Positions 9,571-27,183 of a DNA stretch of 31,578 bases are shown here, one piece after another (within the stretch, counting starts at the first letter, position 1; each line of letters starts with the position of its first letter). The position numbers were made by a program, and so were the translations under genes. The DNA comes from Myxococcota bacterium (lineage in GTDB: Bacteria > Myxococcota_C > UBA6777): contig JAKLKB010000071.1 of assembly GCA_023150835.1 (NCBI GenBank), forward strand, positions 1 to 31,578, written 5' to 3'. The notes under the pieces were generated by a model, which saw only the letters and a list, made by a program, of their open reading frames with translations, was not told the origin of the DNA and did not search any database.

Positions 9571-9801
9571 CCACGGAAAGCACGGAAAGCACCGAAAGCA
9601 CCGAAAGTACCGAAAGTACCGAAAGTACCGAAAGTACCGAAAGTACCGAAAGCACGGAAAGCACGGAAAGTACCGAAAGCACGGAAAGTACCGAAAGCAC
9701 GGAAAGCACGGAAAGCACGGAAAGCACGGAAAGCACGGAAAGCACGGAAAGCACGGAAAGCACGGAAAGCACGGAAAGCACGGAAAGTACCGAAAGCACG
9801 G
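9571..9801. repeat. 9-bp tandem repeat, about 25 units
   Basis: Uninterrupted 9-mers from 9571 to 9795, then a partial unit. Three unit types alternate: GCACGGAAA, GTACCGAAA and GCACCGAAA. In order: one CCACGGAAA, one GCACGGAAA, two GCACCGAAA, five GTACCGAAA, two GCACGGAAA, a GTACC/GCACG/GTACC alternation, ten GCACGGAAA, one GTACCGAAA. Because the unit is a multiple of three, all frames stay open (Lys-Ala-Arg, His-Gly-Lys; Leu-Ser-Val on the minus strand), but none has a credible start. It sits in the 550-bp gap between the methyltransferase-like and HEAT lipoprotein genes (9377-9926). Confidence 0.95.
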
Positions 9802-9926: not shown

Positions 9927-10745
9927 TCACAACAATCGGGCGTATTTTGCGTGGCCTTGTGCGTCCATTTGTTGCAGTGCTTCTGCGCGTTTTTGCTGGT
10001 ATTGCTCACGCAGGGCGGCAAAGTGCTGTGGGGAAGGGGAGCTTGGGTCGGAAGGTTCAGGAGCGGCAGAGAAAAACAGGCCCGAAAAAAAAGCAGGAGA
10101 GAGGCCGTGTTGTTGGAGGGCGTCTTGATACCATCGCGCAGCATCGGAGAATGGAAGGCGAAAACCCACATCACGCAAGCGAGCTTCGATCTCGGCGTAT
10201 TGTTGGGGAGAAGCGTTGTGGATCTCGGCGATGAATCGGCCTCCTTCACGCAGCGCATCAAAGAAAACAGCGATGGCTTGGGATTGTTGGGGGGGAGATA
10301 GGCACTGCAAGGCTCGAAAATTCAAGATCAGATCAAGATCTTCTTGGGGGGCTTGTTGGCAAAAGTCCTGACATCGGGGGTAAAGCAGCAAGGGCGGATG
10401 GGGTGGAAAAGGCAGATGGTGTTGTTTGAGGCATTCTTTGAGCGATGGGATATGCTCGGTCCAACGGGGGTTTTGGAAAGTGCTGAGCATCTTGATCGCA
10501 CTTGGAGCGATATCGGTCACCCATGTCTCACAACCGAACGACGCAAACAGCAGCGGGGCAAGAGATAACCCATTGCCTGCGAACCACACCCGCCGTTCTT
10601 GTTGCGCAAGCAGCCAAGGCAAAAAAGCTGCGGCGCGTTCGATGTGGTAAGACAGAGCGCCTTTTTCCAGATGGTGGCCCTGCGCGATCAGTACGGCGAT
10701 ATGGTCTTCCCATCCTTGCGGATCCTCGGGACTCTTGTGTCGCAC
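9927..10745 (-). CDS. Class I SAM-dependent methyltransferase-like protein
   Basis: 272 residues from a GTG at 10745 that has GAGG six bases upstream; the longer frame from a TTG at 10805 has no ribosome-binding site. The core resembles a Rossmann methyltransferase: motif I VWFAGNGLSLAPLLFASFGC (53-72), an acidic end of strand 2 (TD at 77-78), LDLILNFRALQCLS (137-150) in the motif IV position and LREGGRFIAEIHN (165-177) after it. Motif I lacks the usual D/E-x-G-x-G-x-G form, so cofactor binding is less certain. The C-terminus is Pro/Ser-rich, then helical and Gln-rich. The substrate is unknown. It follows the TraX-family gene by 75 bp on the same strand. Confidence 0.7.
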   Translation of the reverse strand: MRHKSPEDPQGWEDHIAVLIAQGHHLEKGALSYHIERAAAFLPWLLAQQERRVWFAGNGLSLAPLLFASFGCETWVTDIAPSAIKMLSTFQNPRWTEHIPSLKECLKQHHLPFPPHPPLLLYPRCQDFCQQAPQEDLDLILNFRALQCLSPPQQSQAIAVFFDALREGGRFIAEIHNASPQQYAEIEARLRDVGFRLPFSDAARWYQDALQQHGLSPAFFSGLFFSAAPEPSDPSSPSPQHFAALREQYQQKRAEALQQMDAQGHAKYARLL

Positions 10746-10820
10746 CGCGTGCCTCTTTTGGAAGGGACTTGTTGTGTTGCGCAAGATCGAAGCAGAAATC
10801 GCCAACGATGCAAGCGAAGA

Positions 10821-11612
10821 TCAAGATATCGAAAAGATCTCCCAAGGCCATTTGCCCATGCCAAGGCGCAAAAGGCTCAATAGTGCGAGATGGGCGGGGT
10901 AGTACACATAAAACGTCAGACGGGGGAGGTAGCGTCGAGTTCGGATCGCACAAGAGGATCCATACGCAACGATCGGGAGCACCAACGTCCCCGCTGTCGT
11001 CCAACAAAAGTCCGCCACAGGAAAAGCCATCGACCAAACACCCTCTTCGTAAGACAGCAGATGCCCAAGATCGATGTTGAGAAACACCGCCAACAAGGCA
11101 CACCAAAACCACCCGATGCGTCGGCCTTGTAAGATCATCACAAGCGCTACAGGAAAGACCAGCCCTACCAGATCGTAATCAAACGGATCTTTGAGCACAA
11201 AACTCACCAAAGAAAGCCCCAAAAGCAAATGCTGCCACACCGGCGATTGTTCGAGCAACCACCGCGAGATCAATGCCGTAAAACACAGGATAAACAGGAT
11301 GTTGATCTGCGGCTCGTCGAAGGCAAGCAAATAAAAAGGTTGGCTGAGCAGCGCGTACGCTATGATCCGTTGAAGATACCGATCCATCGGGTCTTTGCGG
11401 ATAAGATGACACGCCATCGCAAAACAAAACAGCGGATAGGCTCCTCGACCAAGATAAGTCAGCGAGGCGTATTCACCCCCAAACAACGCTTGGTTGGTGT
11501 GATCGAGTGTCATCAAGAACAACGCCCACAGCTTGAGCGTATCCAAGGCCCCTTCGGTTAAGAGCCACGGTGAAGGCGATGGGATGGGGAATTCGGAGGA
11601 AGGGATGTGCAT
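10821..11612 (-). CDS. TraX-family integral membrane protein
   Basis: 263 residues with about seven or eight hydrophobic helices. The N-terminal LDTLKLWALFLMTLDHTNQ, then LGRGAYPLFCFAMACHL, RIIAYALLSQPFYLLAF and NILFILCFTALIS, match the pattern of TraX proteins. The F-plasmid TraX N-acetylates pilin; chromosomal relatives are presumed membrane acyltransferases with unknown substrates. The ATG at 11612 has only a distant AAGGA, so the start is moderately sure. It lies 110 bp after the giant surface-protein gene and before the methyltransferase-like gene, all minus, so the three could form one transcription unit. Whether it modifies the giant protein is speculation. Confidence 0.8.
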   Translation of the reverse strand: MHIPSSEFPIPSPSPWLLTEGALDTLKLWALFLMTLDHTNQALFGGEYASLTYLGRGAYPLFCFAMACHLIRKDPMDRYLQRIIAYALLSQPFYLLAFDEPQINILFILCFTALISRWLLEQSPVWQHLLLGLSLVSFVLKDPFDYDLVGLVFPVALVMILQGRRIGWFWCALLAVFLNIDLGHLLSYEEGVWSMAFPVADFCWTTAGTLVLPIVAYGSSCAIRTRRYLPRLTFYVYYPAHLALLSLLRLGMGKWPWEIFSIS

Positions 11613-11722: not shown

Positions 11723-14700
11723 TCAGAACTTTCCGACAGCGCGGATGAAGAAGCCGCTGTAATCGCGGGTATCGTCGAGGAAGAGGTTGTCGGTAAAGCG
11801 TGTGAAGTTGTAGCCGACGCCGACGTAGGCGAAGCGATGGATATTGTACGAGGCTTCGACCAAGAAACCGTGATCAAAGGTCGAGTGGCGTAGGGCTTCG
11901 CCGCCTGAGCCTTGCCATTGCCAGAAGAGACGGTACTCGACGCCGATATCCAGTTTGTCAATCAGATGGAAATTCAGGCGGTTGATCCATAGGATCGTGG
12001 CAGTCGAAGCGGGCTGTAGTCCGGCGATCTCTTCTTTGCGGAACTTGACGTTGAATTGCTCGACGATCTGGAGACGGAAAGGCAACTCGAAGATCGGAAC
12101 CAGCGAGAAAACCTCCGTTACAGAGCGCTGTTGTTCGTTGGTGCCCGTCAATCCGAGGGGACGTTGTTCTTGGCGCAAGGTGTACTTGAGCAGGACACTC
12201 ACCCAATCAAATCGGACGGGGCGATACGCAAGACCCGCCGTGAATTCGAGCAGCTCGCCTTCGGTGCCGCCTGCGCCGCTGTTAAAGGAGAAGTTGTGTG
12301 TGAGCGCGTAGTTGAGTCGGATCAAGAAGGCGACATCTTCGGTGAATTGCCATGTCACGTTGTTGAGGGTGACAAACTGGAGCTTGTCGCCTGTGTTGAG
12401 GAGGGGGTTGTTTTCGTCGTAGCGAAGCTCGTAGCGACCCGAGGCTTTGATGTTTTTCCAACGGGTGAGTTGGAAGGTTAAACGCCCGACAGTTCGGCCA
12501 CTTGCGCCTGCGCGAGGATCAAGGAACATCGCTCGCTCAAAGCCTGCACCAAGAAATACCCCTTGGAAGAACTCGAAGACGTGGTTGAGACCGACGACTG
12601 CGCGGGAGTTTTCGTTGGAGATGCCGCTGTCGAGCTGATATTCGCCATACACACGGCTGCCACGGCTGAGCTTTTGCTCTGCGCCGATCACGACGGTATT
12701 GACGAGACCTGTGCTGAATTGTTGGTAGGTGATCTCTTCGCGGATGTAAGCTGAAGACGTTTCGTTGAGCTTGGTTTTGAGGCCGACTTGGGCGGAATGA
12801 TTCCCGCTCCATCGGAGGGTTCCCGCGACCGTTGCGTAAGTATCCGTGTCGAAAAGTTTGAGGTTCAGTCCCAACGTCGTGGCAAAGTGATCCATGACCG
12901 TGAGCGGTGCGACGGTTTGGGTTTCAAAGGCAAGCTGTTGGCGGAGCATGACTTGGACGTATTTGTTGATCTTCCACGAGCCACCAAGTGTGACGAAGTT
13001 GCCCCAGAGGTTGAGTCGTCGGAGGCCATCAAAGTCTTGGGTGTGGCTGTATTCGATGGTGACGTCCCAACTTGGGTTGATAAAGAAGGCATACTGCAAG
13101 TTGAAGAGGTGCTTGATGTAGTCGTAGGATTGGTTGGTGGTGGGATCGAATTGAAGGCCGATGCCGCCGTCGTATTTGAGTTGGATCTGATGCTTTTTGA
13201 ACAGTTTGAGGCGTGCGACCGCACCGCCTTTGGTGGTGCCTTGTTCGGGAGCTTGGCCTGACGCGAAGAAGTCGCGGTCTCGATGGGAAAAATACGCCGA
13301 GGTGATCAACTCGATATCTTTCCATTTGGTGAGTTCGGAGATGTCGGAGTTGAGGCGGACAGCGACGGCGTTTCCTTCGAGGGGGACGGCGCTGGTGGTG
13401 CCTTGTTGACCGAGTAGGCCAGAGAAGCGTTGGTTGTTGTGGAAGCCTTGGAGCGGTCGGAAGGTGAGTCCACCGTCGTCGCTAAAGAAGCTTTGCGAAT
13501 CAAAAGAAAGACTGCGTGCGTATTCGGCTTGAAGGTAGGTGTTTTTGTTCCATCGTGCGGTCAGGTCAAAGCCCCACAGTTGATAAGCTGGAGTGCCGCC
13601 CGTTGCGCGATTTTCTTGAACGAAGCTAAAGCCCACTTTGATCTTGTCGAAGAAAGATTGGCTGACTTGGACGCCGACAGTCAGTCCATTTTGGCCGTCG
13701 AGGTTTTCGTATTCGTAATCGGCTTCGATGTAGAGGGGGTTTCCGTCGAGGGTGGAGAAGAGGTTGTGTTGTGTGAGCAAGAAGCTATCGGCGACAGCAG
13801 AGACGGGGTGTTTAAAGAAGATACGGCCTTCAAAGTATTGGACGTTGTAATCGTCGTAACGTCGGAGGGGGATCTGGTGAAGGATGATGCCCGAGTCTTT
13901 GTCGCGGATGGTGAGTCGGATCTGCTCGGAGCCTTCGAGGATATTTTGATGGGGTAGATAGTAGAGCGAGCCGCCTGTTCCACGCATCTGGATGTGGGCT
14001 TTGAGTTGTTGTTGCTGTCCGTCAGAGACGAAGACGCGGGCGCGAGTGTCGTAGTGTTTGGCGAAACGCTTTTGGAAGTCGATATCGACGCCGTGTACGG
14101 TGCGATCGTAGCGGATGATCTCGACGCCGCGCAGTTTGGTATTGAAGTTTCCTGCGACAAGACGGGAGCGATCCGCTTGGACCATGACGTAAAGCGGCAT
14201 ACGGTAGGATTGATCACCGACTTTGAAGCCCCAGCCACGGGTTTGAACGTCTTGGACTTGTTTTCCTGAGTCGCCATACACGGGGTAATAGCGGTCTGGA
14301 TCGATTAGCTGTTGGTAAAAATCCGTGATCTCGCGGCGTTTGGGGGTTTCGATATAAGCGGTGTATTGGATATTTTTGAAGATCGCGCTGAGAAGGTGTT
14401 TTCCTTGGACTTGGCCTTTGGCGTAAAAGACGGCTCGACCGTGGATCATCACACCGCTGCCTTGGAAAGAGCCGATCGATTCGAGTCCTTCGATCTGGGT
14501 GCTTTGTGTGCCAAAGGTCATGTCTGCGAGCGCAAGCATAAACAAGCGGTTAAGGTTGACGTTGATCGGCCAGTTGATCTCGCCGCGATTGCCTTCTTTG
14601 TCTTCGGCGTAGAGTTGAAGTTTTTGCTGGCCGTGTTTGAGCTTGACCTTGACGGAAAAGACCCCTTTGTCAGAGACGGTCGCGGTCTGTCCGTTGGCAA

Positions 14701-17700
14701 AGACCTTGTTTCCGGGTTCGGTGTACCCTGTGAGGGTGAGTTCTTCGCTGTGAATGACCGAACCTTGGGGAGGAAGCGTGACGCGCAGTTTTGCAGCGGC
14801 GACTTCTTTGGCTTCGGACAGCGGGATCTCGACCAGTTTGGTTTTGGGTTCAGAAGGCGCGGGCTTTGCGGGCTTTGCGGGCTTTGCGGGCTTTGCGTCT
14901 TTGGTGGACGATGGGGGGAGGGCGGTTGATTTGGCCGAATGTACGGTGGCTTGCGCGACGGTAAGCGTTTTCTTTGCGGAAGCGGGGTCTTGTGCGAGGT
15001 TGGTTGTTTTGGTCGAAGGGGTGGTCGTTTGCGCAACGTTCGGGGTGTTGTTCGAGGATTTTGCCGAAGGGGTGGTTGTTTGCGGCGAGGTCGCGTCGAA
15101 AGTGAGCGGAGCCGGTGTGGGGGCTTGGGCGACACGAAGGTGTTTGCCGCGCCGTCCGTTGGTTTCGGAGGGGGTGTTTTGGGTGAGGTGATCGACTTTG
15201 TTTGCGGAGAGATAGAGTCGGAAGGTGGGTTGATCGTTGGCGGAGAGCAGGGGGTGGTTGTTTGGATCTTGGAACTCAAGCAAGAAACGCTTTTTGTTGA
15301 AGATCTGAGAAGGGTGCAAGATCAAGGACTTGCGAGGAGTAAAGGTGCGGCGTTTGAACCAAGCGAGGGGATCTTTTTTGGGCGCGGTGGAGGGCGATTT
15401 GGGGATCTGTGGTTTGGGCGCGGGTGCGGTGGTGGGAGCTTTTTTGAGGATAACGACGGGGAGATCGACACGTCCACCGCGTGGGGTGGTGATCTGGAGT
15501 CGGATCTCTCGGACATAAGGGGGTTGGAGAGTATGTTCAAACTGGCCGCGAGCGGTAAGCGGGAGGTTGAGTTGTTCGATCTGGGCCATCGGATCGTAGG
15601 ACATCCCGGGGATGGCGTTTCCTGCGGCGCTTTGTTCTTCGGTGACGCGGATCTCGATGCGCAGGTTTTTGCGTTTGTTGCGTGTACTGATGTTGGGCAA
15701 GAGCGGGCGACCTGCGCCAAAGCCGCGAGAGACGATCTGTGTGGAGGGTATCTGGAGCGAAGTTTGGAGGAAGTTGGCGATCGAGACAGCGCGGCGAACG
15801 GTGAGGAAAAGTGCGCGTTGACGGGGGAGATCGGTGTTGTGGTGGACGTGGACTTCGAGGCGGGTGTTGGATTCTTTGAGCAGAGCGAGGACTTTCTTAC
15901 GGAAGGCAGCGCTGCGCAGACGCGAGCGCAGGCGCCCGTAAACTTTGATGCCGCTGCGGCCCATCCATTGAGCGGGGAAAGTTTGGTTGAAGAGGACTTT
16001 GCGCGGCTTTTTGGTGACATTTGCCCCGAAGATGCGGGGAGGGCTTTGGCTGATCGTGTCGTCGAGGGTGGTCAAGGTGAATTGGGCGATGTAAAGGCTG
16101 CGTTCGCGCAAGACAAAGACGCCTGCGTTGGAATCGCCCATCCATTCGATGAGAGGAGGCGGGGTGCCAACGCCTTTCATGGTGCGGATCATCAGGCCCA
16201 TTTTTTTGCCTTGGGCTTTTTCGTAGAGGTCGATGCGCCAGTTGGCAGGGCGCGTCCCTTCGGCGACGCGCAGATGGAAGGCGGCGGGTTTGGGGAGGCT
16301 TTTGTCGCGTAGTTCTAGATCGATGCCTTGTTCGCTTTCAAAGTTGGGCAGGTGATCTTTTTCAGCGGTGATGGCGAGATCCACGACGGGGAGAGGACGG
16401 GGTTGTCCGTTGATGGCGAGGCGGGGTCCGTAGACGCTGCCTGTGATGCGGATGGGTTGGGGCTTGGGTTTGGGGATAACCTTTTTGCGCAAGAAGACTT
16501 TTTGAACGGTGGAGGTGACCGAATTGCATTTGACGGCGAAGTTGATTTTTCGGAAGAGACCGCGAGAGATGTAGAAGATACGGTCGGGGGTATCGATCAT
16601 GGTCGAGCCGGGGGGGAGGGTTTGGGCATCGATCTTGAGCATATGGTTTCCGGGATCGATGGCTTGGATATGGTATTTGCCGGTCTCGTCGGTTTCGGCG
16701 TAGTGTCCGTTGTCGAGATAGATGCGGACGCCACCGATGCCCGTGTCATCGGGGTCTTGCCAGCGGTTGCCGTTTTTGTCGCAGAAGACTTTTCCAAGCA
16801 CAGTACCTTGGTCAAAGATCGGATCGTAGGTGACTTGGACGACGGCGCGGGCTTGTTCGCTGATGGCTCCGCCCGCTTCGTTTTGGACGGTGGCGATGTT
16901 GACGTAAGAGCCGACAGGAAGGCCGCGACTGACAGCGACTTGGTAACGCAGCGTGATGTCGGTGAGTCCGGGCAGATCGAAGGGTCCAAAGCGCATCAGG
17001 CGGGTGGGCGTGATGGATTGGCCGTTTTTGCGGTTGGTGTTGGCTTCTGCGAGGACTTCGCGGCCATCGGAGCGTTTGACGCGAGGGCTGAGGGAAAGCA
17101 GGTTAAAGCCCGCAGGGAGGATATCGTTGATGTAGATCCCGCCGGTTTTTTTGTTGGAGTCAAAGAGCAAGTCGACGGGGCTGCGGTTTTCGACTTTGAG
17201 GGTGTAGGTGATGATATCGCCGACGGTGGCGACTTTGAGGGAGGCGGTTTTGCTGAGGATGATCAGGCTATCGAAGGAGTCGAGGGGGAGGTGGTTGTTT
17301 TGGATGACTTGTGGGCGGTTGGTGACGGAGAATCGGACATAATAGGTCTTGGGTTGGTTGGTATTTCCGGGGTTGGGTCGATCTTGGGGGATGATCTTTC
17401 CAAGATCGGTGAAGGTGGCGAATTGTGCGATGCCTGCTTCGGGAGCGATGCGTGTGGAAGGGAAGACCAAGGTGGGGATGGGGGAACGGACGGCGATGCG
17501 GTAGCTTCGTTCGTTTGAGGTGGGCGGATCGAACTTGTACATACCTCGGCGGTTGGTGGGTTGGCCTTGTTGGTTTTCGGGGAGATCGGTTTGGGAGACT
17601 TGTTGTCCGCAGCGGCCTTCGCGGTCGCCCGCTTTTTCTCGGATGCAAAGGCCGGTGTTTCCGCAATCACTGTCACGTCGGCAGGCCGTGTTTCCAAGAT

Positions 17701-20700
17701 CATCGAAGACAAGGAAAACACGGGCATCTTCGATAAAGTTGCCGTTATCGCTTTGGTAGATGCGGCCTGTGGGAGCGACTTCGAGGTTGCGGTTGAGGGT
17801 GCCGCCGTTGCTGAGATCGATATCGTACTCAGCGAATTGGACATTTTTCTCGGAGTACACGCGGATCTTGTAGGTGGCGTTGGGGAGGTTGGCGAGTCGA
17901 TAGTTGGCTTGTTCGTCTGCGGTGGCGGTGCGGACGGGGTTTTGGAGGTTGTCGCTGCGATAGGCGCGTACTTGGAAGGCCGAGAGGCGTTCGTCGGTGT
18001 CGGCATCAAAGGAAGTGTTGGTGCCGATCTCTTGGTAGATGATCCCTTGGAGGGAGGCGGTACCACCGCCGCTTTGGACGGTGGTTTGGACTTCGTTGGT
18101 TTCTTCGCTGAGGTTGGGTGGAGCGGTGAGGGTGGCCTTGTTGCGGATGACGGTTCCAGCGGGGGCGTTGGTGGCGATCAAGACTTGGAAGATCAGCAGG
18201 GCGCTTTGGTTGGGGGCAAGGGTGATACCGCTGAAGATCACAGTGCGGGAGTTGGCGTCGAAGGTGTTGGTGCCGGGTCCTTGGGCGCTGTTGTTGCGGT
18301 AGGTGGTGTTTGGGGAGATGGGGTCGCGAACCTCGATGTTGGTTAGTTCGGTCTGTCCGCCGTTTCGGACGGTGATTCGGTATTCGAGGATATCGCCCGG
18401 GTTAGCGTCGCCGCCGTTGAGGTCGACGACTTCTTTGACGCCGACAAGTAGGCTTTGTGTGCCGACGGGGATGACGGTGGGTTGGTTGCCGTTGGCTTCG
18501 TTGTCATCGGCATCGGTGGCTTCGCGGCGGAAGTTGTTGGCTTGGACGAAGCCTTGGTTGGAGATCAGTTTGCCGCCCGTGATGCGGACGCGGAAAGTGA
18601 CGCGGGCTTGTTGTCCAGCGGGAAGGTTTCCGAGGTTGACAAAGACAGTTCCGCGCCCAGCACCTGCGCGAAACTCGGCAGCATCGGCGTCAGCGGTGTC
18701 TGTAAGAGAACGCCCATCAAGGGTAATGGAGGAGCCGATGTAAAGGGTGTTTTCGGGGATCTCGTCTTCGATACGGGCGGCGTTGGCGGGGGCGTTGCCG
18801 GAGTTTCGGACAAGGAGGGTGTATTCGAGGACGTCGTTGATATCGGCGACGTTGGGAGTGCCGGCGTCTTCGGCGATACGGACGGTTTTGGCGGTGGCGG
18901 TGAGGTTGGGTCCACCGCCGACGACGACATCGGTGGGGTCGTTGGGAGCGGGTGTTTCGGGATTGTCGGTGCGTAGCGGAGGAACATTGCTGCCCGAGAT
19001 GCGGCCTTGGTTGGAGAGAATCGTGCCGTTGGCGACGCCTTGGTTGACACGGACTTGGAAAGTAATGGTGGCGGATTCGTCCTCGGGTGGGGTGCCATCG
19101 TCGGGGAGAAGGGTTCCGGGTTGGGTTCCTGATCGAGCGCTTTGGACGAGGATTCCTACTGCAAGGGGGTTGTTGGTGCCGTCGTCAGGGACTTGTTGGC
19201 TGTTGAGGCGTGTGGAGCCCGGGATATAGGTGGTGTTGGCAGGGGTGGCGTCGATCAATTGGAGTTGTTGCGCATTGAGAGAGCCACGGTTGCGGAGGAT
19301 CAGGGTGTAGGTGAGGATATCGTTGGCCTCGACTTGACCGCCGTTTTCATCACGGACGGTTTTGGTGGCGACGACGAGCGCGCTGGCTTGGACAGTGACG
19401 CGGGTGGGATCTTTGGGGGTGGGGGTGGTGGGATCATCGGAGAGTTGGGGGGTGGTGATCTCGCGGCTGGTGACGCGGGCTTGGTTGTCGAGGTTGGTGC
19501 CGTTGGGTGTGTTGGGATCGACGGTTGCGTTGAAGGTGAGTAGGCGCGTTTGCCCGGGGCCGATGCTTGGGAGATTCCAGACGATCTCGTTGTTGACGAC
19601 GATGCCGCCTTGTCCGGGGAGTATGTTGATCAAACCGGTGGGGACGGGGTCACGGACCTCGACGCTGTTGGCGGCTTGTGAGCCTGTGTTTTGGACGGTG
19701 ATGGTGTAGGTGAGTTGTGTGCCGGGACTGGCGATGCCGTTGGTTGTGCCGCTGACGGTTTTGGTGATGTTGGAGAGGTTGGGTGCGCTTTGGACGGTGA
19801 TGCGGGTGGGATCGTCGGAGGCGGGAGTATTGGGATCATCGGTGAGGGTGTCGGAGGTGGTTTCGGTGCTGCGGATGGTAGCTTGGTTGGATATCACGGT
19901 GCCATCGGTAGTTCCAGCGCGGATCCTAGCGCGGATCGTGAGCAAGACTTCGGATTGGGCATCGATGCGTGCGAGTGCAGGGGTGGTGGTGGGATTCCAA
20001 GTGAGGGTGTTTCCGCTGAGTGTTCCGCCGTTTCCGGGTCGGATGTTGTCGAGGTTTGGATCGATGGGGTCGGTGACGATGACGTTGGTGACAGGGGTGT
20101 TGCTGGTGTTGCGGATGCGGAGGGTGTACTCGATCTCGTCGTTGGGTTCGGCAGAGCCACCGTTGATATCGCGAACTTCTTTGGTGGAGGCAGAGATATC
20201 GGGGAATGCAACAAGGAGGAAGGTGGGGTCGTTGGGTGTGGGAGTGGCGGGATCATCGGAGAGCAGTTGAAGGGTGCCGTCGTTGTTGGTGGCGCGGGCT
20301 TGGTTGGGGATGCGTGTTCCGTCAGGAACACCCGCACGGATGCGTGCTTCAAAGGTGACTTGGGTTTGTTCGCCCGGCTTGAGTTGGGTGAGTGCAGGGA
20401 CTTGGGCTGCGGTCCAAGTGATGGTGTTTCCAGAGACTTGGCCGTTGTTGAGGGCGCGGACGATCTCAAGGTTGGCGTCGACAACGTCTGTGAGTGTGAT
20501 CTGATCGACGTTGCTGGTGCCTGTGTTGTTGATCGTGACGGTGTATCGGACGATATCGCTCGGTCGATAAGAGCCACCGTTGAGATCAGCGGCTGTTTTG
20601 GTGAAGGTGAGGCGTGTGGTGGAGCGGACGATGACGACGGTGGGATCGTTGGGAGTGGGAGTGTTGGGATCGTCGGTGGGGAGAGGGGTTGCGACCTGAT

Positions 20701-23700
20701 CGGCGGAGACTTGGGCTTGGTTGGCGATGCGGGTGTTGTCAGCGAGTCCCGTTTTGATGCGTGCGGTGAAGGTGACTTGTTGGCTTGCGTTGGCGGGGAT
20801 CGCAGAGATGGTCCAGAGGATGCGGCCTGTGTTGGGGTCAAAGATGCCGCCATTTGCGGGGTTGATGGCCTCAAGGGTGTTGGTATCAATGGGATCGTTG
20901 ATCACGACGTTGGTGGCGGGCTGTGTTCCCGAGTTTCGGACGGTGAGGGTGTAGGTGAGCGTGTCGCCCGGGGCAGGATCGCCGCCGTTGTTGTCGGTGA
21001 CGGTTTTGGTAGAGGCCAAGAGGGCTTGTCCGCCGACGACGATGGCGGTGGGATCATCAAGGGCAGGGGTGGTGGGATCATCGGTGGGTACGGGTGTATT
21101 GAGTCCTTGGGCGGTCAAAGTGCCTTGGTTGAGGATGCGTGTTCCAGCGGGGACACCTTGGGCGATCTGTGCGGTGAAGGTGAGTGTCACGCTGGTGTTG
21201 GGGGCGATGTTGCGCAGCGCAGGGGTTGTATTGCCGTCCCAGTTGATCGTGCCACCGCTGAGCGTCCCACCTTGCCCGGGGGCGATGTTGATCAAGTTGT
21301 TGGTGTCGATGGGATCGCGGACCACGACGTTGATGGCTGCGCCTTTGCCGGTGTTTCGGACGGTAAGGGTGTAGGTGAGGATATCGCCCGGCTGAGGTGT
21401 ACCGCCGTTGTTGTCGCGGACTTCTTTGGTGGAGTCAGCGAGGGTGGGGCCTGCGACGACGGTGACTTTGGTGGAGTCGTTGTCTTCGGTGGTACGGGGA
21501 TCATCGGAAGGTTCAGGGGAGGTGATCTCGGTGCTGGTGACTTGGGCTTGGTTTTCGATGACGGTGCCGTTTTGGGCGGTGGTGAGGACCACAGCGGTAA
21601 AGGTCAATGTGACGGAAGCGCCGACGGGGAGATTGGCGAGGGCAGGGGTGGTGGTGGCATTCCAAGTGATGGTGTTTCCTGCGAAGGTTCCGCCTTGTCC
21701 CGGGGTGATCTGGTTGATCTTGGTCGTGTCGATGGGATCGCGTACAACGACATTGGTTGCGGCAGAAGTTCCGGTATTTCGGAGGGTAATGGTGTAAGTG
21801 AGGGTATCGCCGGGTTCGACTTGTCCGCCGTTGTTGTCGGTGACTTCTTTGGTGGTGTTGGCGAGCGATGGGCCCGAAGTGACGGTGATGATCGTGGGAT
21901 CGCTGGGGGCGGGAGTGGTGGGGTCGTCGGTGACGGTAGCGTTGGCGTTGGCGGCGGTGATGCGGCCTTGGTTGGAGATCTTGGTTTGGTTGGGGAGAGC
22001 AGGTTTGACGCGGGCCGTAAAGGTCAAGCGAACTTCGCTGTTGCTGGCGATGCTTGGGATGTTCCAAGAGATGACGTTTCCAGCGAGTACACCGCCGTTT
22101 GCGGGGACGATGGCTTCGAGGTTGGTGTCGACGGCATCGGTGACGAGGACGCTGGTTGCGGCGACGTTGCCGGAGTTTCGGATGGTGAGGGTATAAGAGA
22201 CGGTTTCACCGGGCAAAAGCTGGCCGCCGTTGATATCGCGGACTTCTTTGGTGGAGGTGGTGAGATCGGGGCGTGAACGAACGGTGACGCGGGTGGGATC
22301 GTTGGGGGCGGGAGTGGCGGGATCGTCGGAGTTTTGTGCGGGGATGCCTGTGGCGTTGAGGATGGCTTGGTTGTCGATGAAGGTGCCGTCGGGGAGATTG
22401 GCTTGGACACGTGCGGAAAAGGTGAGGCGGATCTCATCGCCGGGGTTGAGGTTGGCGAGGGCGGGAGTGGTGGTGGGATTCCAAGTCAGGGTGTTTCCGC
22501 TAAGTGTTCCGCCATTTCCGGGTTGGATCTGGGTCAGTTGTGCAGGGACAACGTCGGTGACGACGACGTTTCGGTAGGGGGCATTGCCTGAGATGCGCAG
22601 GGTGAGGGTGTAGGTGAGGATATCGCCCGGGACGACATCGCCCCCGTTGGCATCGCGAACTTCTTTGGTGAAGGTGGCGGTGGCTTGGGATTGGACGGTG
22701 ACGCGGGTGGGATCGTTGGGTGTGGGGGTGTTGGGATCGTCGGAGAGGATCTCTGTAAAGTTTGCGCCGTTGATGCGGGCTTGGTTGGAGAGGACGGTGC
22801 TGTTGGGGAGTGGGGCGCGGATCTGTGCGGTGAAGGTGACGGTGGTGGTGGCGTTGGGGGCGAGGCTTGCGAGGGCAGGCGTGGTGTTGCGGTTCCAGAC
22901 GATGGCTCCGCCCGTGAGGGTGCCGCCATTTGCGGGGACGATGTTGATCAAGTTGGCGTCGATCGGGTCGGAGATCACGATGTCGGTTGCGGCGGTACTG
23001 CCGGTGTTTCGGAGGGTGATGGTGTAAGTGAGGGTATCGCCGGGTTGAGGGGAACCGCCGTTGTTGTCGGTGACGGTTTTGGTGGAGGCAAGGTTGGGAC
23101 GTGCGACGACGCGGATGACGGTGGGATCGCCGAGGACGGGGGTGTTTGGATCATCGGTGCGTTGGGCGCCGCCGATGTTGGGGCCTTGGATCACGCCTTG
23201 GTTGGGGATGACGGTCCCGTCGGTGGTTCCGGCCTTGATGCGTGCTGTAAAAGTTAACACAACGGTGGCGTTGGGAGCGATGCTTGCGAGGGCGGGAGTG
23301 GTGGCCGTGTTCCAAGTGATGGTGTTTGCTGCGAAGGTTCCGCCATTTGCGGGGACGACGTTTTCGAGGTTGGGATCGATGACATCGATCACGACAAGGT
23401 CGGTGGCTGCGCGGTTTCCAGAGTTTCGGAGCGTGAGTGTGTAGGTGAGGGTGTCGTTGGGTTCGATTTGACCGCCGTTGTTGTCGGTGACGGTTTTGGT
23501 GGAGCGAGAGAGTTCGGGTCCAGCGATCACGGTGAGCGTTTGCGAAGATATCGAGAGTCGGCTGTTGTCTTTTTCGTCGATGATATCGCCGAGATTGGTG
23601 ATGGCTGTGCCGTTGGGGACGTTGGGATCGATGGTGACGCGAAAGACGATCTGTGCGGATTGTCCGACGTTTAGTGCGATATTGCGTACGGTCAGCAGCC

Positions 23701-25918
23701 CTGTTTGGTTGGCTCCTGCGGGGGCGGGTTGGAATTGAGGTAGGCTTCCAACAGGGATCGTGACTTGTTGGTAATTGGTGACACCAAGGGGGAGATTGTC
23801 TTCCCAACGGACGGTGGTGTTTCGGGATCCGTTGTTGCGGAGGGTGACGGTGTAGGTGAGGATGTCGCCGGGTTCGGGGCGTCCGCCGTTATCGTCGGTG
23901 ACGGTTTTGGTGGAGGCGGAGAAGTCAGGCTTGTAGTTGACGATGACGACGGTGGGATCGTTGCGTGGAGGCGTGTTGGGGTCGTCGGTCAGGAGCGTCA
24001 CACCCGCGAGAGTTTGTCGGGCCTCGCCTTGGTTGGACAAGCGTGTGTTGTGGATCTTGTCGATGGTGACGCCTGCTGCGATGAATTCGGCTTCGGTAAA
24101 GACGGTGAGGGTGTAGCGGATCTCGGCGGTGAAATTTGCGGGGATGGTGATATTGCGGATATCGATGAGTCCTGTGCCGTTGGTTCCGCCTGTTGCGCTG
24201 GAGCGGTTGTCAGCGGGGCTGGTTCCAGCGGGGGGGATCACGCTGTTGGGATCGAGTTTGACGTAGGGCGGAAGGTTGTCGACGTATTGGACGCCGCTTG
24301 CGGAGGCGCTACCGCTGTTTTGGCCGACGATGGTGTAGCGCAGTTGTTCGCCCGGTCGGACATCGGTGGCTCCGGGGCGGGTGAGGTTTTCGAAGCGTTT
24401 GGTGAGCGAGCCAAGTTGCGGGGCTTGGATCGTTGTGATCGCGGTGTTGCTTTGGGTGGGTCCGACTTCATCGGACTGGACGGTGAAAAAGTTGGCGATC
24501 TGCCGATTGGGCGGGGTGCTTGTGATGCGGACTTGGAAGGTGATCTCGCGATCGTTGTCTCCGCGAAAGTCGATGGTTCCGAGGTTGAGTCCATTGACGA
24601 GAGGGCTTGTGCCTCCGACATCGGCGCGAGGTTGTCCATCGACGCGGGTGGAGTTGGGGATGTAGCTGGTGAAGGCGGGGATGCTGTCGCGGATGATGGT
24701 GTTTCGAGCCGCAAGCGAGCCTGTGTTCACCACTTCGAGCGTGTAGGTCAGGATATCGCCGACGCCTGCATTGCTGCGGTCGACGCGCTTTCGGGTGCGG
24801 GTGTTGCGAAAGTTGGGAGTGAGGGTGTCGATGGCAAGGATAATAAAGCCAAGAAAGACCAGTTCACCGTCGCCGCATTGACCGCCCGCACAAGCGATGC
24901 CATCGCCTGTTCCGAGTGTGAGGTCGGCGAATGTATCGCCCGGTTTGAGCAAACCGAGGCCGCGTTGTCCGATCTCGAACGTGTCCAGATCGACGCCCAA
25001 AGCCAATGTCGAGTTCCAGATGTTGCCTGAGGGGTTGTAGGGGGTGGCGGAAAATAAGCGGGTGCTTTGTGTGGCGGATTGTGCTCGAAAAGAGATGAAG
25101 TCGCTGTTTGTGGCGGGTTCTGGGGGAGATCCGAGGAATTGGTCACCTTCGAGACCAAAGAAGGTGAACGTTCCTTCGGGTGGATCGCCGACTTGGAAGC
25201 CGCTGATGCGGAAGTTGGTGATCCCCGAACTGGGAGGGTTTTGTTCTTCGTCCATCATCAAAAAGCCGTCATAGAGGACGATATCGCGGCGTACAGTCGT
25301 GGTGGGGCTTTTCCAAACGACAGCCATCGACCAAGCAGCGTAGTTGGCTTGGCAGAAAGGGTTGTTGTTGCAATCGCCCGGCAGAGCGTTGAGATTGGCA
25401 ACGGTGTAGGTGCCGTTGAGGTTGTTGCCTGTGCCGAGTTGCTTGACGAGGGCGGTGATATCGGCGCGACAATAGAAAAAGTCGAGGTTACCGAGGACAC
25501 GGCGAACGGTTTGACAGGAAGTCGAAGTGACCGCGATACGTGTTCCGTTGGGGAGAGTGAAGTCCACCGAATTATCGGGCGTTCCGTTGACGGTGCCTGT
25601 CCACCAAAGATAGGCGGCTTCGACTTCGCCATCAAAGGGGATGCCGCTGATCTGCGCCGAGTTTTGCGGAAGAAGGATATCGTTGACGTTTCCGGGGGGG
25701 CTTGCTGACATCATGGTGTTGCCGGAGATAGCGGCAGAACCAAATAACTTGTAGGTTGCAAGGACCGCAGGGGGCTGTCCTTGAACGCCCGCATACACGG
25801 GAGCGCTCGCAAAGATCAAGAAACAAGTAAGCAGCCACCACGTCAAACGCATCATCAAGTGTGGACGCCAAAGTGCCGTTGCCATGGAAGACATGGCGCT
25901 TTTTGTCGAACTATCCAT
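11723..25918 (-). CDS. Giant DUF11/SdrD-B/OmpA-like protein with C-terminal outer-membrane barrel
   Basis: About 4,731 residues in one uninterrupted frame. From the ATG at 25918: signal peptide ending APVYA (about 43); a unique N-terminal domain (44-365) with several Cys; sixteen tandem DUF11-type repeats (365-2617) of about 140 residues, typically TDNNGG, PGDTLTYTLTLRNSG, DPIDTN, ITWN, TDDPNTP, DPT; a carboxypeptidase-regulatory-like module (2620-2880) holding a Cys cluster; a further DUF11 copy (2884-3035); an SdrD-B domain (GKVFCDKNGNRWQDPDDTGI, 3035-3107); a beta domain; an OmpA-like domain (3337-3427, RAVSIANFL, SRGFGAGRPLLPN); a Thr/Pro/Ala linker (3597-3697); an Ig-like domain; and a barrel of about 940 residues (YYPVYGDSG, GTGGSLYYLPHQ) ending in Phe. 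The weak ribosome-binding site (GGTGGG) leaves the start open: ATGs at 25885 or 25855 would also give a signal peptide, while the frame above 26060 lies outside the transcript. Function is inferred as adhesin or envelope-spanning surface structure. Confidence 0.88.
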   Translation of the reverse strand: MDSSTKSAMSSMATALWRPHLMMRLTWWLLTCFLIFASAPVYAGVQGQPPAVLATYKLFGSAAISGNTMMSASPPGNVNDILLPQNSAQISGIPFDGEVEAAYLWWTGTVNGTPDNSVDFTLPNGTRIAVTSTSCQTVRRVLGNLDFFYCRADITALVKQLGTGNNLNGTYTVANLNALPGDCNNNPFCQANYAAWSMAVVWKSPTTTVRRDIVLYDGFLMMDEEQNPPSSGITNFRISGFQVGDPPEGTFTFFGLEGDQFLGSPPEPATNSDFISFRAQSATQSTRLFSATPYNPSGNIWNSTLALGVDLDTFEIGQRGLGLLKPGDTFADLTLGTGDGIACAGGQCGDGELVFLGFIILAIDTLTPNFRNTRTRKRVDRSNAGVGDILTYTLEVVNTGSLAARNTIIRDSIPAFTSYIPNSTRVDGQPRADVGGTSPLVNGLNLGTIDFRGDNDREITFQVRITSTPPNRQIANFFTVQSDEVGPTQSNTAITTIQAPQLGSLTKRFENLTRPGATDVRPGEQLRYTIVGQNSGSASASGVQYVDNLPPYVKLDPNSVIPPAGTSPADNRSSATGGTNGTGLIDIRNITIPANFTAEIRYTLTVFTEAEFIAAGVTIDKIHNTRLSNQGEARQTLAGVTLLTDDPNTPPRNDPTVVIVNYKPDFSASTKTVTDDNGGRPEPGDILTYTVTLRNNGSRNTTVRWEDNLPLGVTNYQQVTIPVGSLPQFQPAPAGANQTGLLTVRNIALNVGQSAQIVFRVTIDPNVPNGTAITNLGDIIDEKDNSRLSISSQTLTVIAGPELSRSTKTVTDNNGGQIEPNDTLTYTLTLRNSGNRAATDLVVIDVIDPNLENVVPANGGTFAANTITWNTATTPALASIAPNATVVLTFTARIKAGTTDGTVIPNQGVIQGPNIGGAQRTDDPNTPVLGDPTVIRVVARPNLASTKTVTDNNGGSPQPGDTLTYTITLRNTGSTAATDIVISDPIDANLINIVPANGGTLTGGAIVWNRNTTPALASLAPNATTTVTFTAQIRAPLPNSTVLSNQARINGANFTEILSDDPNTPTPNDPTRVTVQSQATATFTKEVRDANGGDVVPGDILTYTLTLRISGNAPYRNVVVTDVVPAQLTQIQPGNGGTLSGNTLTWNPTTTPALANLNPGDEIRLTFSARVQANLPDGTFIDNQAILNATGIPAQNSDDPATPAPNDPTRVTVRSRPDLTTSTKEVRDINGGQLLPGETVSYTLTIRNSGNVAATSVLVTDAVDTNLEAIVPANGGVLAGNVISWNIPSIASNSEVRLTFTARVKPALPNQTKISNQGRITAANANATVTDDPTTPAPSDPTIITVTSGPSLANTTKEVTDNNGGQVEPGDTLTYTITLRNTGTSAATNVVVRDPIDTTKINQITPGQGGTFAGNTITWNATTTPALANLPVGASVTLTFTAVVLTTAQNGTVIENQAQVTSTEITSPEPSDDPRTTEDNDSTKVTVVAGPTLADSTKEVRDNNGGTPQPGDILTYTLTVRNTGKGAAINVVVRDPIDTNNLINIAPGQGGTLSGGTINWDGNTTPALRNIAPNTSVTLTFTAQIAQGVPAGTRILNQGTLTAQGLNTPVPTDDPTTPALDDPTAIVVGGQALLASTKTVTDNNGGDPAPGDTLTYTLTVRNSGTQPATNVVINDPIDTNTLEAINPANGGIFDPNTGRILWTISAIPANASQQVTFTARIKTGLADNTRIANQAQVSADQVATPLPTDDPNTPTPNDPTVVIVRSTTRLTFTKTAADLNGGSYRPSDIVRYTVTINNTGTSNVDQITLTDVVDANLEIVRALNNGQVSGNTITWTAAQVPALTQLKPGEQTQVTFEARIRAGVPDGTRIPNQARATNNDGTLQLLSDDPATPTPNDPTFLLVAFPDISASTKEVRDINGGSAEPNDEIEYTLRIRNTSNTPVTNVIVTDPIDPNLDNIRPGNGGTLSGNTLTWNPTTTPALARIDAQSEVLLTIRARIRAGTTDGTVISNQATIRSTETTSDTLTDDPNTPASDDPTRITVQSAPNLSNITKTVSGTTNGIASPGTQLTYTITVQNTGSQAANSVEVRDPVPTGLINILPGQGGIVVNNEIVWNLPSIGPGQTRLLTFNATVDPNTPNGTNLDNQARVTSREITTPQLSDDPTTPTPKDPTRVTVQASALVVATKTVRDENGGQVEANDILTYTLILRNRGSLNAQQLQLIDATPANTTYIPGSTRLNSQQVPDDGTNNPLAVGILVQSARSGTQPGTLLPDDGTPPEDESATITFQVRVNQGVANGTILSNQGRISGSNVPPLRTDNPETPAPNDPTDVVVGGGPNLTATAKTVRIAEDAGTPNVADINDVLEYTLLVRNSGNAPANAARIEDEIPENTLYIGSSITLDGRSLTDTADADAAEFRAGAGRGTVFVNLGNLPAGQQARVTFRVRITGGKLISNQGFVQANNFRREATDADDNEANGNQPTVIPVGTQSLLVGVKEVVDLNGGDANPGDILEYRITVRNGGQTELTNIEVRDPISPNTTYRNNSAQGPGTNTFDANSRTVIFSGITLAPNQSALLIFQVLIATNAPAGTVIRNKATLTAPPNLSEETNEVQTTVQSGGGTASLQGIIYQEIGTNTSFDADTDERLSAFQVRAYRSDNLQNPVRTATADEQANYRLANLPNATYKIRVYSEKNVQFAEYDIDLSNGGTLNRNLEVAPTGRIYQSDNGNFIEDARVFLVFDDLGNTACRRDSDCGNTGLCIREKAGDREGRCGQQVSQTDLPENQQGQPTNRRGMYKFDPPTSNERSYRIAVRSPIPTLVFPSTRIAPEAGIAQFATFTDLGKIIPQDRPNPGNTNQPKTYYVRFSVTNRPQVIQNNHLPLDSFDSLIILSKTASLKVATVGDIITYTLKVENRSPVDLLFDSNKKTGGIYINDILPAGFNLLSLSPRVKRSDGREVLAEANTNRKNGQSITPTRLMRFGPFDLPGLTDITLRYQVAVSRGLPVGSYVNIATVQNEAGGAISEQARAVVQVTYDPIFDQGTVLGKVFCDKNGNRWQDPDDTGIGGVRIYLDNGHYAETDETGKYHIQAIDPGNHMLKIDAQTLPPGSTMIDTPDRIFYISRGLFRKINFAVKCNSVTSTVQKVFLRKKVIPKPKPQPIRITGSVYGPRLAINGQPRPLPVVDLAITAEKDHLPNFESEQGIDLELRDKSLPKPAAFHLRVAEGTRPANWRIDLYEKAQGKKMGLMIRTMKGVGTPPPLIEWMGDSNAGVFVLRERSLYIAQFTLTTLDDTISQSPPRIFGANVTKKPRKVLFNQTFPAQWMGRSGIKVYGRLRSRLRSAAFRKKVLALLKESNTRLEVHVHHNTDLPRQRALFLTVRRAVSIANFLQTSLQIPSTQIVSRGFGAGRPLLPNISTRNKRKNLRIEIRVTEEQSAAGNAIPGMSYDPMAQIEQLNLPLTARGQFEHTLQPPYVREIRLQITTPRGGRVDLPVVILKKAPTTAPAPKPQIPKSPSTAPKKDPLAWFKRRTFTPRKSLILHPSQIFNKKRFLLEFQDPNNHPLLSANDQPTFRLYLSANKVDHLTQNTPSETNGRRGKHLRVAQAPTPAPLTFDATSPQTTTPSAKSSNNTPNVAQTTTPSTKTTNLAQDPASAKKTLTVAQATVHSAKSTALPPSSTKDAKPAKPAKPAKPAPSEPKTKLVEIPLSEAKEVAAAKLRVTLPPQGSVIHSEELTLTGYTEPGNKVFANGQTATVSDKGVFSVKVKLKHGQQKLQLYAEDKEGNRGEINWPINVNLNRLFMLALADMTFGTQSTQIEGLESIGSFQGSGVMIHGRAVFYAKGQVQGKHLLSAIFKNIQYTAYIETPKRREITDFYQQLIDPDRYYPVYGDSGKQVQDVQTRGWGFKVGDQSYRMPLYVMVQADRSRLVAGNFNTKLRGVEIIRYDRTVHGVDIDFQKRFAKHYDTRARVFVSDGQQQQLKAHIQMRGTGGSLYYLPHQNILEGSEQIRLTIRDKDSGIILHQIPLRRYDDYNVQYFEGRIFFKHPVSAVADSFLLTQHNLFSTLDGNPLYIEADYEYENLDGQNGLTVGVQVSQSFFDKIKVGFSFVQENRATGGTPAYQLWGFDLTARWNKNTYLQAEYARSLSFDSQSFFSDDGGLTFRPLQGFHNNQRFSGLLGQQGTTSAVPLEGNAVAVRLNSDISELTKWKDIELITSAYFSHRDRDFFASGQAPEQGTTKGGAVARLKLFKKHQIQLKYDGGIGLQFDPTTNQSYDYIKHLFNLQYAFFINPSWDVTIEYSHTQDFDGLRRLNLWGNFVTLGGSWKINKYVQVMLRQQLAFETQTVAPLTVMDHFATTLGLNLKLFDTDTYATVAGTLRWSGNHSAQVGLKTKLNETSSAYIREEITYQQFSTGLVNTVVIGAEQKLSRGSRVYGEYQLDSGISNENSRAVVGLNHVFEFFQGVFLGAGFERAMFLDPRAGASGRTVGRLTFQLTRWKNIKASGRYELRYDENNPLLNTGDKLQFVTLNNVTWQFTEDVAFLIRLNYALTHNFSFNSGAGGTEGELLEFTAGLAYRPVRFDWVSVLLKYTLRQEQRPLGLTGTNEQQRSVTEVFSLVPIFELPFRLQIVEQFNVKFRKEEIAGLQPASTATILWINRLNFHLIDKLDIGVEYRLFWQWQGSGGEALRHSTFDHGFLVEASYNIHRFAYVGVGYNFTRFTDNLFLDDTRDYSGFFIRAVGKF
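18070..24825 (-). repeat. Tandem array of sixteen DUF11-coding units
   Basis: Units of about 390-460 bp recur. In the centre (about 19300-23500) they are close to 415 bp apart and similar enough at the DNA level that strings such as GGTGTAGGTGAG, CCGCCGTTGTTGTCGGTGAC and GTGGGATCGTTGGG recur near every unit boundary. The outermost units (1-3 at the N-terminal end, 14-16 at the C-terminal end) are more divergent in length and sequence, the usual pattern of an array that grows by internal duplication. The DNG-type TDNNGG loop and DDPNTP linkers suggest calcium binding, but this is not shown. Confidence 0.85.
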
Positions 25919-25960
25919 GTTTCTACCCACCAAGCGAAAAAACAATGCAACACCTATCTC

Positions 25961-26041
25961 TTTTTTGAGACACCGACGAGCTTTGGGCGAATTTGCGTCG
26001 CACAAGCGCCTGTTCTTCGATGCGATGATTTTTTGAGACAC
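25961..26041. promoter_or_regulatory. Two identical 13-mers in the leader of the giant gene
   Basis: TTTTTTGAGACAC occurs at 25961-25973 and 26029-26041 (GTGTCTCAAAAAA on the coding strand), 68 bp apart and both within the predicted leader of about 140 nt. They could be paired protein-binding or RNA-regulatory sites; nothing further is visible. Confidence 0.4.
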
Positions 26042-26066
26042 AAAAGACCTTCTCCAAAGTCCACGC

Positions 26067-26094
26067 ATTATAGAGGATAGCTTTGCGCTGGCAA
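26067..26094 (-). promoter_or_regulatory. Sigma70-type promoter of the giant gene
   Basis: On the minus strand, -35 TTGCCA (26089-26094), a 16-bp spacer and a perfect -10 TATAAT (26067-26072). Transcription should start near 26060, giving a leader of about 140 nt before the ATG at 25918. This also excludes the longer in-frame start at 26068, which falls in the -10 box. Confidence 0.75.
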
Positions 26095-26183
26095 GGCCAC
26101 GCGGATCTTACGGAGTATGCGCATTTTGGGATGGAACCAAGGCCACGCGGATCTTACGGAGTATACGCATTTTGGGATGGAAC
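26092..26183. repeat. 46-bp tandem duplication at the giant-gene promoter
   Basis: Two head-to-tail 46-bp copies (26092-26137 and 26138-26183) differ at a single base (TATGC versus TATAC). The promoter-proximal copy overlaps three bases of the -35 box, so the pair occupies the classical upstream-activator region (about -35 to -125). A third repeat begins after 26183 but stops after five bases. Confidence 0.9.
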
Positions 26184-26466
26184 CAAGCTTTTTTGACCCG
26201 CCCAAGAGCCACGTCCCTCGCTCTTCAAAGCGTACGAGGATGCGAAGAGGTCTGCGGAACAAAATATGAACGCTTCGCCATCGCCCATGCTGTACGGTTC
26301 GAGCGTACAAAAGCGCACAGTCTCTTGTCTGGTTTTGTGGTCGGATGGAGCGGTGGGTTGGTTTGGGTGGGCAGGATCGTTCGGTGTTTGGCGGGGGTCT
26401 CGAAGAGGTCGAGGCTTTCGATGCTCTCTCTCGCGGATTCAGGTGATGGGTGGATATCGTAGACGC
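26184..26466. other. Gene-free stretch upstream of the giant-gene promoter
   Basis: Together with the promoter, leader and repeats this fills 25919-26511. Short open frames exist on both strands, but none has a ribosome-binding site, a signal or a recognisable motif, and I see no further structure. Confidence 0.4.
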
Positions 26467-26504: not shown

Positions 26505-26511
26505 GAAGATG

Positions 26512-26584
26512 TGGAGCTAGGCGGGATCGAACCGCCGGCCTCATGAATGCCATTCATGCGCTCTCCCAGCTGAGCTATAGCCCC
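26512..26584 (-). tRNA. tRNA-Ala(GGC)
   Basis: 73 nt without encoded CCA. The acceptor GGGGCTA pairs with TAGCTCC (one G-U), the D-arm is GCTCAGCTGGGAGAGC, the anticodon stem CATGA/TCATG holds the loop ATGGCAT (anticodon GGC, alanine GCC/GCU codons), and the T-arm is GGCGG-TTCGATC-CCGCC. The discriminator base is A. It has its own promoter upstream and a terminator directly downstream. Confidence 0.97.
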
Positions 26585-27094: not shown

Positions 27095-27109
27095 GTTTGT
27101 TTTTTGGTG

Positions 27110-27183
27110 TGGGCGATACTGGAATCGAACCAGTGACCCCTTGCATGTCAAGCAAGTACTCTAACCAGCTGAGCTAATCGCCC
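27110..27183 (-). tRNA. tRNA-Val(GAC)
   Basis: 74 nt without encoded CCA. The acceptor GGGCGAT pairs perfectly with ATCGCCC, the D-arm is GCTCAGCTGGTTAGAGT, the anticodon stem CTTGC/GCAAG holds the loop TTGACAT (anticodon GAC, valine GUC/GUU codons), and the T-arm is CACTGG-TTCGATT-CCAGT with discriminator A. Anticodon GAC rather than GTC distinguishes it from tRNA-Asp. Confidence 0.96.

Follow-up and report, generated by a model that had tools for sequence, protein, structure and literature searches.

A giant DUF11 fibre protein of a Myxococcota bacterium: a modular envelope system possibly condensed into one chain

Architecture of the locus

The window, which is the whole 31,578-nucleotide stretch of Myxococcota DNA analysed here, carries a giant open reading frame (ORF) on the minus strand (26068..11723); stop codons crowd the plus strand there. 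The initial annotation had reported one open frame at 11723-25918; the coordinates are right, the strand was not given, and position 25918 is Met51 of the giant ORF. The signal peptide MMRLTWWLLTCFLIFASAPVYA begins at about residue 72, and translation likely starts near Met72/Met73, ahead of this clear signal peptide, giving a protein of about 4,710 aa. No strong ribosome-binding site stands out near the likely start. The features of the locus are as follows:

11723..26068, minus strand: entire giant ORF, 4781 aa when counted from the first ATG, with Met72/Met73 as the likely start region
25787..25852, minus strand: Sec signal peptide, residues about 73-94, MRLTWWLLTCFLIFASAPVYA, read from the sequence
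24809..25786, minus strand: N-terminal head domain, residues 95-420, without Pfam or PDB match
18089..24790, minus strand: 16 tandem DUF11 (CLIPPER) domains, residues 427-2660, Pfam, Lys-Asp-Asn isopeptide triad in each
17759..18031, minus strand: CarboxypepD_reg / SpaA-like prealbumin-fold module, about residues 2680-2770, sub-threshold in the window protein
16880..17230, minus strand: 17th DUF11 domain, residues 2947-3063, Pfam
16598..16816, minus strand: SdrD_B domain, residues 3085-3157, Pfam
15614..16006, minus strand: OmpA-like domain, residues 3355-3485, diverged, with Asn in place of the ligand Asp and the Arg retained
14804..15601, minus strand: region of about residues 3490-3755, whose end is a flexible linker rich in Thr, Pro, Ala and Lys that carries AKP repeats
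14570..14791, minus strand: Ig-like Glucodextran_B domain, residues 3760-3833, Pfam (29.2 against a cut-off of 27)
11726..14557, minus strand: C-terminal outer-membrane barrel-like domain, residues 3838-4781, ending GFFIRAVGKF, putative barrel fold
10821..11612, minus strand: TraX-family acyltransferase-like neighbour, TraX match 2.4e-29
9927..10805, minus strand: methyltransferase-like neighbour, sub-threshold match only

The giant gene is present in a single copy in the window genome. Complete single-chain versions that keep this domain order are encoded by two relatives, G003 (4685 aa) and G004 (4693 aa); both start with signal peptides once aligned and share 60-62% identity with the window protein in the C-terminal region. 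The window lineage is a phylum, and the C-terminal domain is present in all five of its genomes examined; among these, one copy is truncated where its contig stops, and the G001 contig ends inside the gene. The initial annotation had described a single-chain fusion of a DUF11 fibre, an OmpA-like domain and an outer-membrane-type C-terminus ending in Phe, and had proposed a search for homologues with this order; all of these elements are borne out, and G003 and G004 are such homologues. That the frame is an artefact, joined or mis-assembled, was the objection which that annotation raised against itself. It is scarcely credible, since both relatives show the same 4.7-kaa order at 50-60% identity and purifying selection is seen across the whole C-terminal part.

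Immediately upstream of the giant gene, a 46-bp direct repeat (26092-26187; two copies matching 98%) might be regulatory. Further upstream lie tRNA-Ala (ggc; 26511-26584) and tRNA-Val (gac; 27109-27183) on the minus strand, and the ORFs listed at these two positions are translations of the tRNAs.

The two downstream neighbours had been proposed as modifying partners. Their identities were recovered in part: the TraX assignment holds at the value given above, while the methyltransferase gave only a sub-threshold match. The partnership was rejected because the pair is not conserved beyond the genus. Both genes follow the giant gene only in the window genome (G000) and in the 99%-identical G001, whereas G004 and G002 carry different genes there, the same pair in both (MoxR-type ATPase on our reading); in G003 the contig end is reached. 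Dedicated partners are therefore unlikely. Just downstream of the methyltransferase-like gene, a 9-bp repeat (CACGGAAAG, 25.6 copies, 9572-9801) gives runs of Lys-His-Gly or Leu-Ser-Val when spurious ORFs are translated and is possibly a slippage site or spacer array.

The head domain and the DUF11 fibre

The N-terminal head (residues 95-420), for which Pfam and PDB sequence searches gave no match, is a possible adhesive tip. Behind it, Pfam placed 17 DUF11 stretches above cut-off (E 5.5e-140), settling an earlier estimate of 16-17 repeats, and NCBIfam returned twelve "isopeptide-forming" RrgB-type matches across the array. A PDB sequence search with the repeats gave only a weak match, to the pilus protein 3kpt (0.052). 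According to excerpts of PMC12617251, DUF11 is known from surface stalks and was renamed CLIPPER after a crystal structure (9IFR) revealed a Lys-Asp-Asn isopeptide bond. By inspection, Lys, Asp and Asn lie in register in 17/17 repeats of the window protein, and K9, D46 and N107 are invariant in an alignment of ten repeats, suggesting that isopeptide bonds form in this array.

The fibre is interrupted by the prealbumin-fold module, and SpaA scores above cut-off at the matching position in G004. The SdrD_B domain, also present in the initial annotation, clears its Pfam cut-off narrowly (30.1 vs 29.7 bits).

The C-terminal domain is a likely outer-membrane barrel

Comparison of G000 with the near-identical G001 revealed that constraint varies along the C-terminal part, with dN/dS values of 0.26 in the linker (3640-3755; the weakest constraint), 0.12 on the OmpA side and 0.019 over the Ig domain plus barrel, the barrel being most strongly constrained. 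The linker between the OmpA-like and Ig/barrel domains contains a 9-bp tandem repeat encoding Ala-Lys-Pro (14859-14897), at which slippage could change linker length. Glucodextran_B occurs at the same place in G004, G211, G248 and G360.

The last 944 residues match nothing among Pfam models, NCBIfam models or PDB sequences, and PDB sequence searches with the domain and with its profile were likewise negative. Several properties are consistent with a barrel. The final residue is aromatic in 19/22 family members whose barrel ends the ORF, and Porin_4 and DUF2490 score above cut-off in relatives G031a and G031b. The window domain holds 45 amphipathic segments against 29 in shuffles, although this test is not specific to barrels: family members have 3.1-4.8 segments per 100 residues, LptD, FhuA, OmpF and FimD 3.4-3.8 and the DUF11 array 2.1, and the soluble beta protein FimH scores 3.9. 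Thirteen residues are invariant in 26 sequences of the domain, several of them charged (D3933, R3989, E4182, E4547 and R4616). AlphaFold run on the 944 residues as a single sequence without alignment gave a model of no interpretive value (pLDDT 29), and hhalign of the barrel profile against single sequences of LptD, FhuA, OmpF and FimD found no profile similarity, the FimH comparison being uninformative too. The window genome encodes Omp85 proteins, so the organism is a diderm; the window locus is not among the Omp85 matches. Judged from these sequence features, the C-terminal domain is likely an outer-membrane barrel.

Profile A1 of the C-terminal domain was run against a sample of 386 genomes spread over the taxonomic domain. 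Relatives that score E 1e-8 or better occur in 34/386 genomes from about 16 families, including the window's own, and at values stronger than 1e-20 in 23/386 (about 6%). tblastn against named plasmids added Sinorhizobium meliloti, Nitratireductor, Phyllobacterium, Pelagibacterium and Devosia, as well as Sulfitobacter, Roseivivax, Paracoccus, Croceibacterium and Eleftheria, together with Vibrio campbellii, Acinetobacter haemolyticus and the cyanobacterium Kovacikia. Scans of viral contigs found no barrel relatives. A 1456-aa protein of G071 (locus L075, 3744-8114), with several partial repeats of the region around the family's DYxxxYxxGxI motif, possibly represents a separate family sharing an inserted domain.

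The relatives are variously annotated as "TonB-dependent receptor", "OmpA family protein", "outer membrane protein transport protein" or "hypothetical protein". The first of these labels, borne by several plasmid-encoded relatives, would favour a TonB-dependent receptor or nutrient porin. We regard this as very unlikely, because plug and TonB_dep_Rec domains are absent from the window protein (Pfam, E up to 1) and the relatives scanned, and the operon partners are DUF11 fibres rather than uptake genes.

Fibre, OmpA module and barrel occur fused and split

Local HMM scans of diverse relatives revealed a constant order, DUF11(n)-SdrD_B-(OmpA)-barrel, with the Ig domain ahead of the barrel. Single-chain forms with 16-17 DUF11 domains are found in G000, G003 and G004; other single chains (G211, G248, G285, G109, G312, G375 and others) have 0-4, often with further DUF11 genes adjoining. 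In five genomes with neighbouring DUF11 genes (G031, G266, G285, G312 and G375), 29/34 DUF11 matches are no more than about 15 kb away from the barrel gene, where about 1% would be expected by area. The barrel relative in G032 has no DUF11 at all. In G018 (L024, 5808-14825), a right-handed beta-helix replaces the DUF11 array of the single-chain form, which indicates that the barrel/OmpA base carries different fibres.

In two-gene forms, the barrel gene is immediately preceded by a gene encoding DUF11 and/or SdrD_B in 12/12 named loci inspected, and five annotated pairs overlap by 4 bp. The upstream "A" protein ends shortly after SdrD_B, and the downstream "B" protein generally begins with its own signal peptide. 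In Sulfitobacter and Roseivivax the A genes measure about 18.5 kb and encode proteins of about 6,100 aa. On a Paracoccus alcaliphilus plasmid (L097, 6491-14604), the fibre gene looks broken by insertions of the IS110 and IS5 families; only an SdrD_B remnant remains behind the insertion sequences, and the barrel gene is intact.

The position of the OmpA domain also varies. It lies in the barrel chain in the window clade, G018, G211, G248, G285, G109, G312, G375 and Eleftheria, in the A protein in Croceibacterium, and in separate operon genes in Vibrio and Acinetobacter; HMM scans detected none in G120, G255, G360, G266, G031, G032 and Kovacikia. Directly behind the Vibrio campbellii barrel gene, a lipobox protein with two OmpA domains is encoded (L089, 14593-15498), likely a trans-acting cell-wall anchor.

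A refuting case named in the initial annotation was a barrel encoded by a separate, unrelated gene in homologues. Separate barrel genes do exist, but beside a DUF11 gene, which supports a functional link. Since the pieces are split within one operon elsewhere, the window protein represents a fusion of what is probably a two-partner system. No other line of evidence speaks as strongly for a joint function of fibre, OmpA module and barrel as this pattern of fusion and fission.

The OmpA-like domain and the topology of the chain

The OmpA-like domain of the window protein scores 24.7 bits, just below the Pfam cut-off of 27.2, and G018 carries a clear OmpA domain at the aligned place (8e-22). Residues 3355-3485, modelled from sequence alone, gave an OmpA topology (pLDDT 65, pTM 0.59). 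The top Foldseek matches of this model are all OmpA-like (E 4.3e-4), and a second PDB structure comparison returned 5nhx (Z 11.3, rmsd 2.8, 114 aligned). Thus, for this part of the chain, the structure prediction called for earlier supports an OmpA fold.

We take the peptidoglycan-binding residues of A. baumannii OmpA to be D271 and R286. The D271-equivalent position is Asn in the window protein, His in G003 and Asp in G004, with the Arg kept, and the Asn of NxxLS is lost throughout the window clade. The full GHTD..N..LS..RA set is retained in most relatives having an OmpA domain. With its ligand Asp replaced, the window domain is doubtful as a cell-wall binder by the known chemistry. A new role for the OmpA-like domain, one of three options offered by the initial annotation, thereby gains partial support, as the binding Asp is lost in two of the three clade members.

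These substitutions bear on the side of the membrane at which the domain would lie. Were export to follow a classical autotransporter-like route, the whole chain ahead of the barrel would be outside, with the OmpA-like fold as part of the stalk. The passenger-then-barrel order, as in type Va, and the loss of the Asp in G000 and G003 and of the NxxLS Asn in the whole clade are in keeping with this. So is a suggestive hint that alphaproteobacterial A proteins might have another, degenerate OmpA-like stretch at their ends: hhalign of their C-termini against OmpA gave E 2.7e-4 at a probability of 42%, and the comparison with the window's OmpA region was negative. The motif set kept in most relatives and the separate Vibrio lipobox protein, which fits a periplasmic cell-wall role, make such an arrangement improbable.

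Conversely, the barrel could be an outer-membrane anchor only, with the DUF11 chain kept in the periplasm as a tether between peptidoglycan and outer membrane. Topology would give this by default, as an OmpA domain N-terminal of the barrel places the adjoining chain in the periplasm. Seventeen Ig-size domains would span an estimated 60 nm or so, well beyond the usual periplasm, the Roseivivax and Sulfitobacter partners reach the size given above, and DUF11 is a stalk domain of surface proteins in the excerpts of PMC12617251, so a purely periplasmic fibre is quite improbable.

The lipobox protein, the order of the genes (A, then B) and the motif that most OmpA domains retain together fit best with a periplasmic OmpA module and an exported fibre. 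In this best reading, the barrel would anchor the fibre, the OmpA module would stay in the periplasm, and the barrel would probably export the fibre. Domains locked by isopeptide bonds are not readily unfolded, which implies export before folding. We propose, with a probability of roughly 0.55, that the window protein condenses into one chain a modular envelope system which elsewhere is spread over two or more genes. One component, A, would comprise a signal peptide, a tandem DUF11 fibre, SdrD_B and sometimes an OmpA domain; the other, B, would join an Ig domain to a large outer-membrane barrel, and in some cases a separate gene would supply OmpA. The chain would be exported by Sec and its C-terminal barrel folded into the outer membrane by BAM. 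The fibre would then thread outward, unfolded, through a closed barrel, and isopeptide bonds would lock it outside, where it may be exposed and adhesive. The OmpA-like module would remain periplasmic as a stop and cell-wall-side anchor, with the SdrD_B end near the pore. Weighing against this proposal are the beta-helix of G018, the lack of DUF11 in G032, the missing ligand Asp in the window's OmpA-like domain, the relatives in which no OmpA domain was detected, and the negative comparisons of the barrel profile with LptD, FhuA, OmpF and FimD. A broader proposal is more tentative, and we give it rather less than even odds: that this is a distinct, widespread export route, in which a large barrel family threads isopeptide-locked DUF11 fibres outward while an OmpA module, in cis or from an adjoining gene, holds the complex on the wall, built as a two- or three-gene operon or, in the window lineage, as one self-sufficient chain.

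Comparison with known systems

The initial annotation had found the domain order at odds with every textbook secretion type, and as a puzzle this holds: the order fits no standard type V layout known to us. The inverse autotransporters (type Ve; intimin, YeeJ) likewise combine a peptidoglycan-binding-type module, an outer-membrane barrel and a long Ig-like fibre in one chain. The order is mirrored, however, with LysM, barrel and Ig fibre in E. coli YeeJ (PMC5595812) and fibre, OmpA and barrel in the window protein, whose barrel is not N-terminal, is far longer and is unrelated in sequence to anything in Pfam. The split relatives resemble two-partner secretion (type Vb, TpsA/TpsB) in having a large secreted-type gene followed by an outer-membrane barrel gene, but the proteins scanned contain no filamentous-haemagglutinin TPS domain, POTRA or Omp85 barrel, and the present system involves an OmpA module and has cis-fused forms.

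OmpA and Deinococcus SlpA, which we take to be a barrel-first and an SLH-barrel protein, respectively, also tie the outer membrane to the wall through a barrel and a peptidoglycan-side domain. They differ in that OmpA has its barrel first, SlpA uses SLH instead of OmpA, and both are without a DUF11 fibre; relative G031a weakly matches the SlpA barrel. DUF11/CLIPPER fibrillar adhesins share the tandem DUF11 domains, the Lys-Asp-Asn triad, the signal peptide and the stalk-like array, whereas anchoring by an OmpA domain and a C-terminal barrel is not described in the excerpts of PMC12617251 (9IFR). T11SS, DUF3233 autotransporters and surveys of fibrillar adhesins were considered and judged to be different things, and we found no description of the combination of fibre, OmpA and barrel in the open-access literature.

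We file the system as a variant of outer-membrane-anchored fibrillar adhesins with a barrel family lacking a name, and the data point to a widespread and apparently undescribed machine for displaying adhesive fibres. A barrel family genetically tied to DUF11 fibres, and now annotated as receptors, OmpA family proteins or hypothetical proteins, offers a testable answer to how long Ig-fibre proteins reach and hold the surface of non-enteric diderms, as the two-gene versions occur in culturable bacteria in which fibre, barrel and OmpA module can be removed singly.
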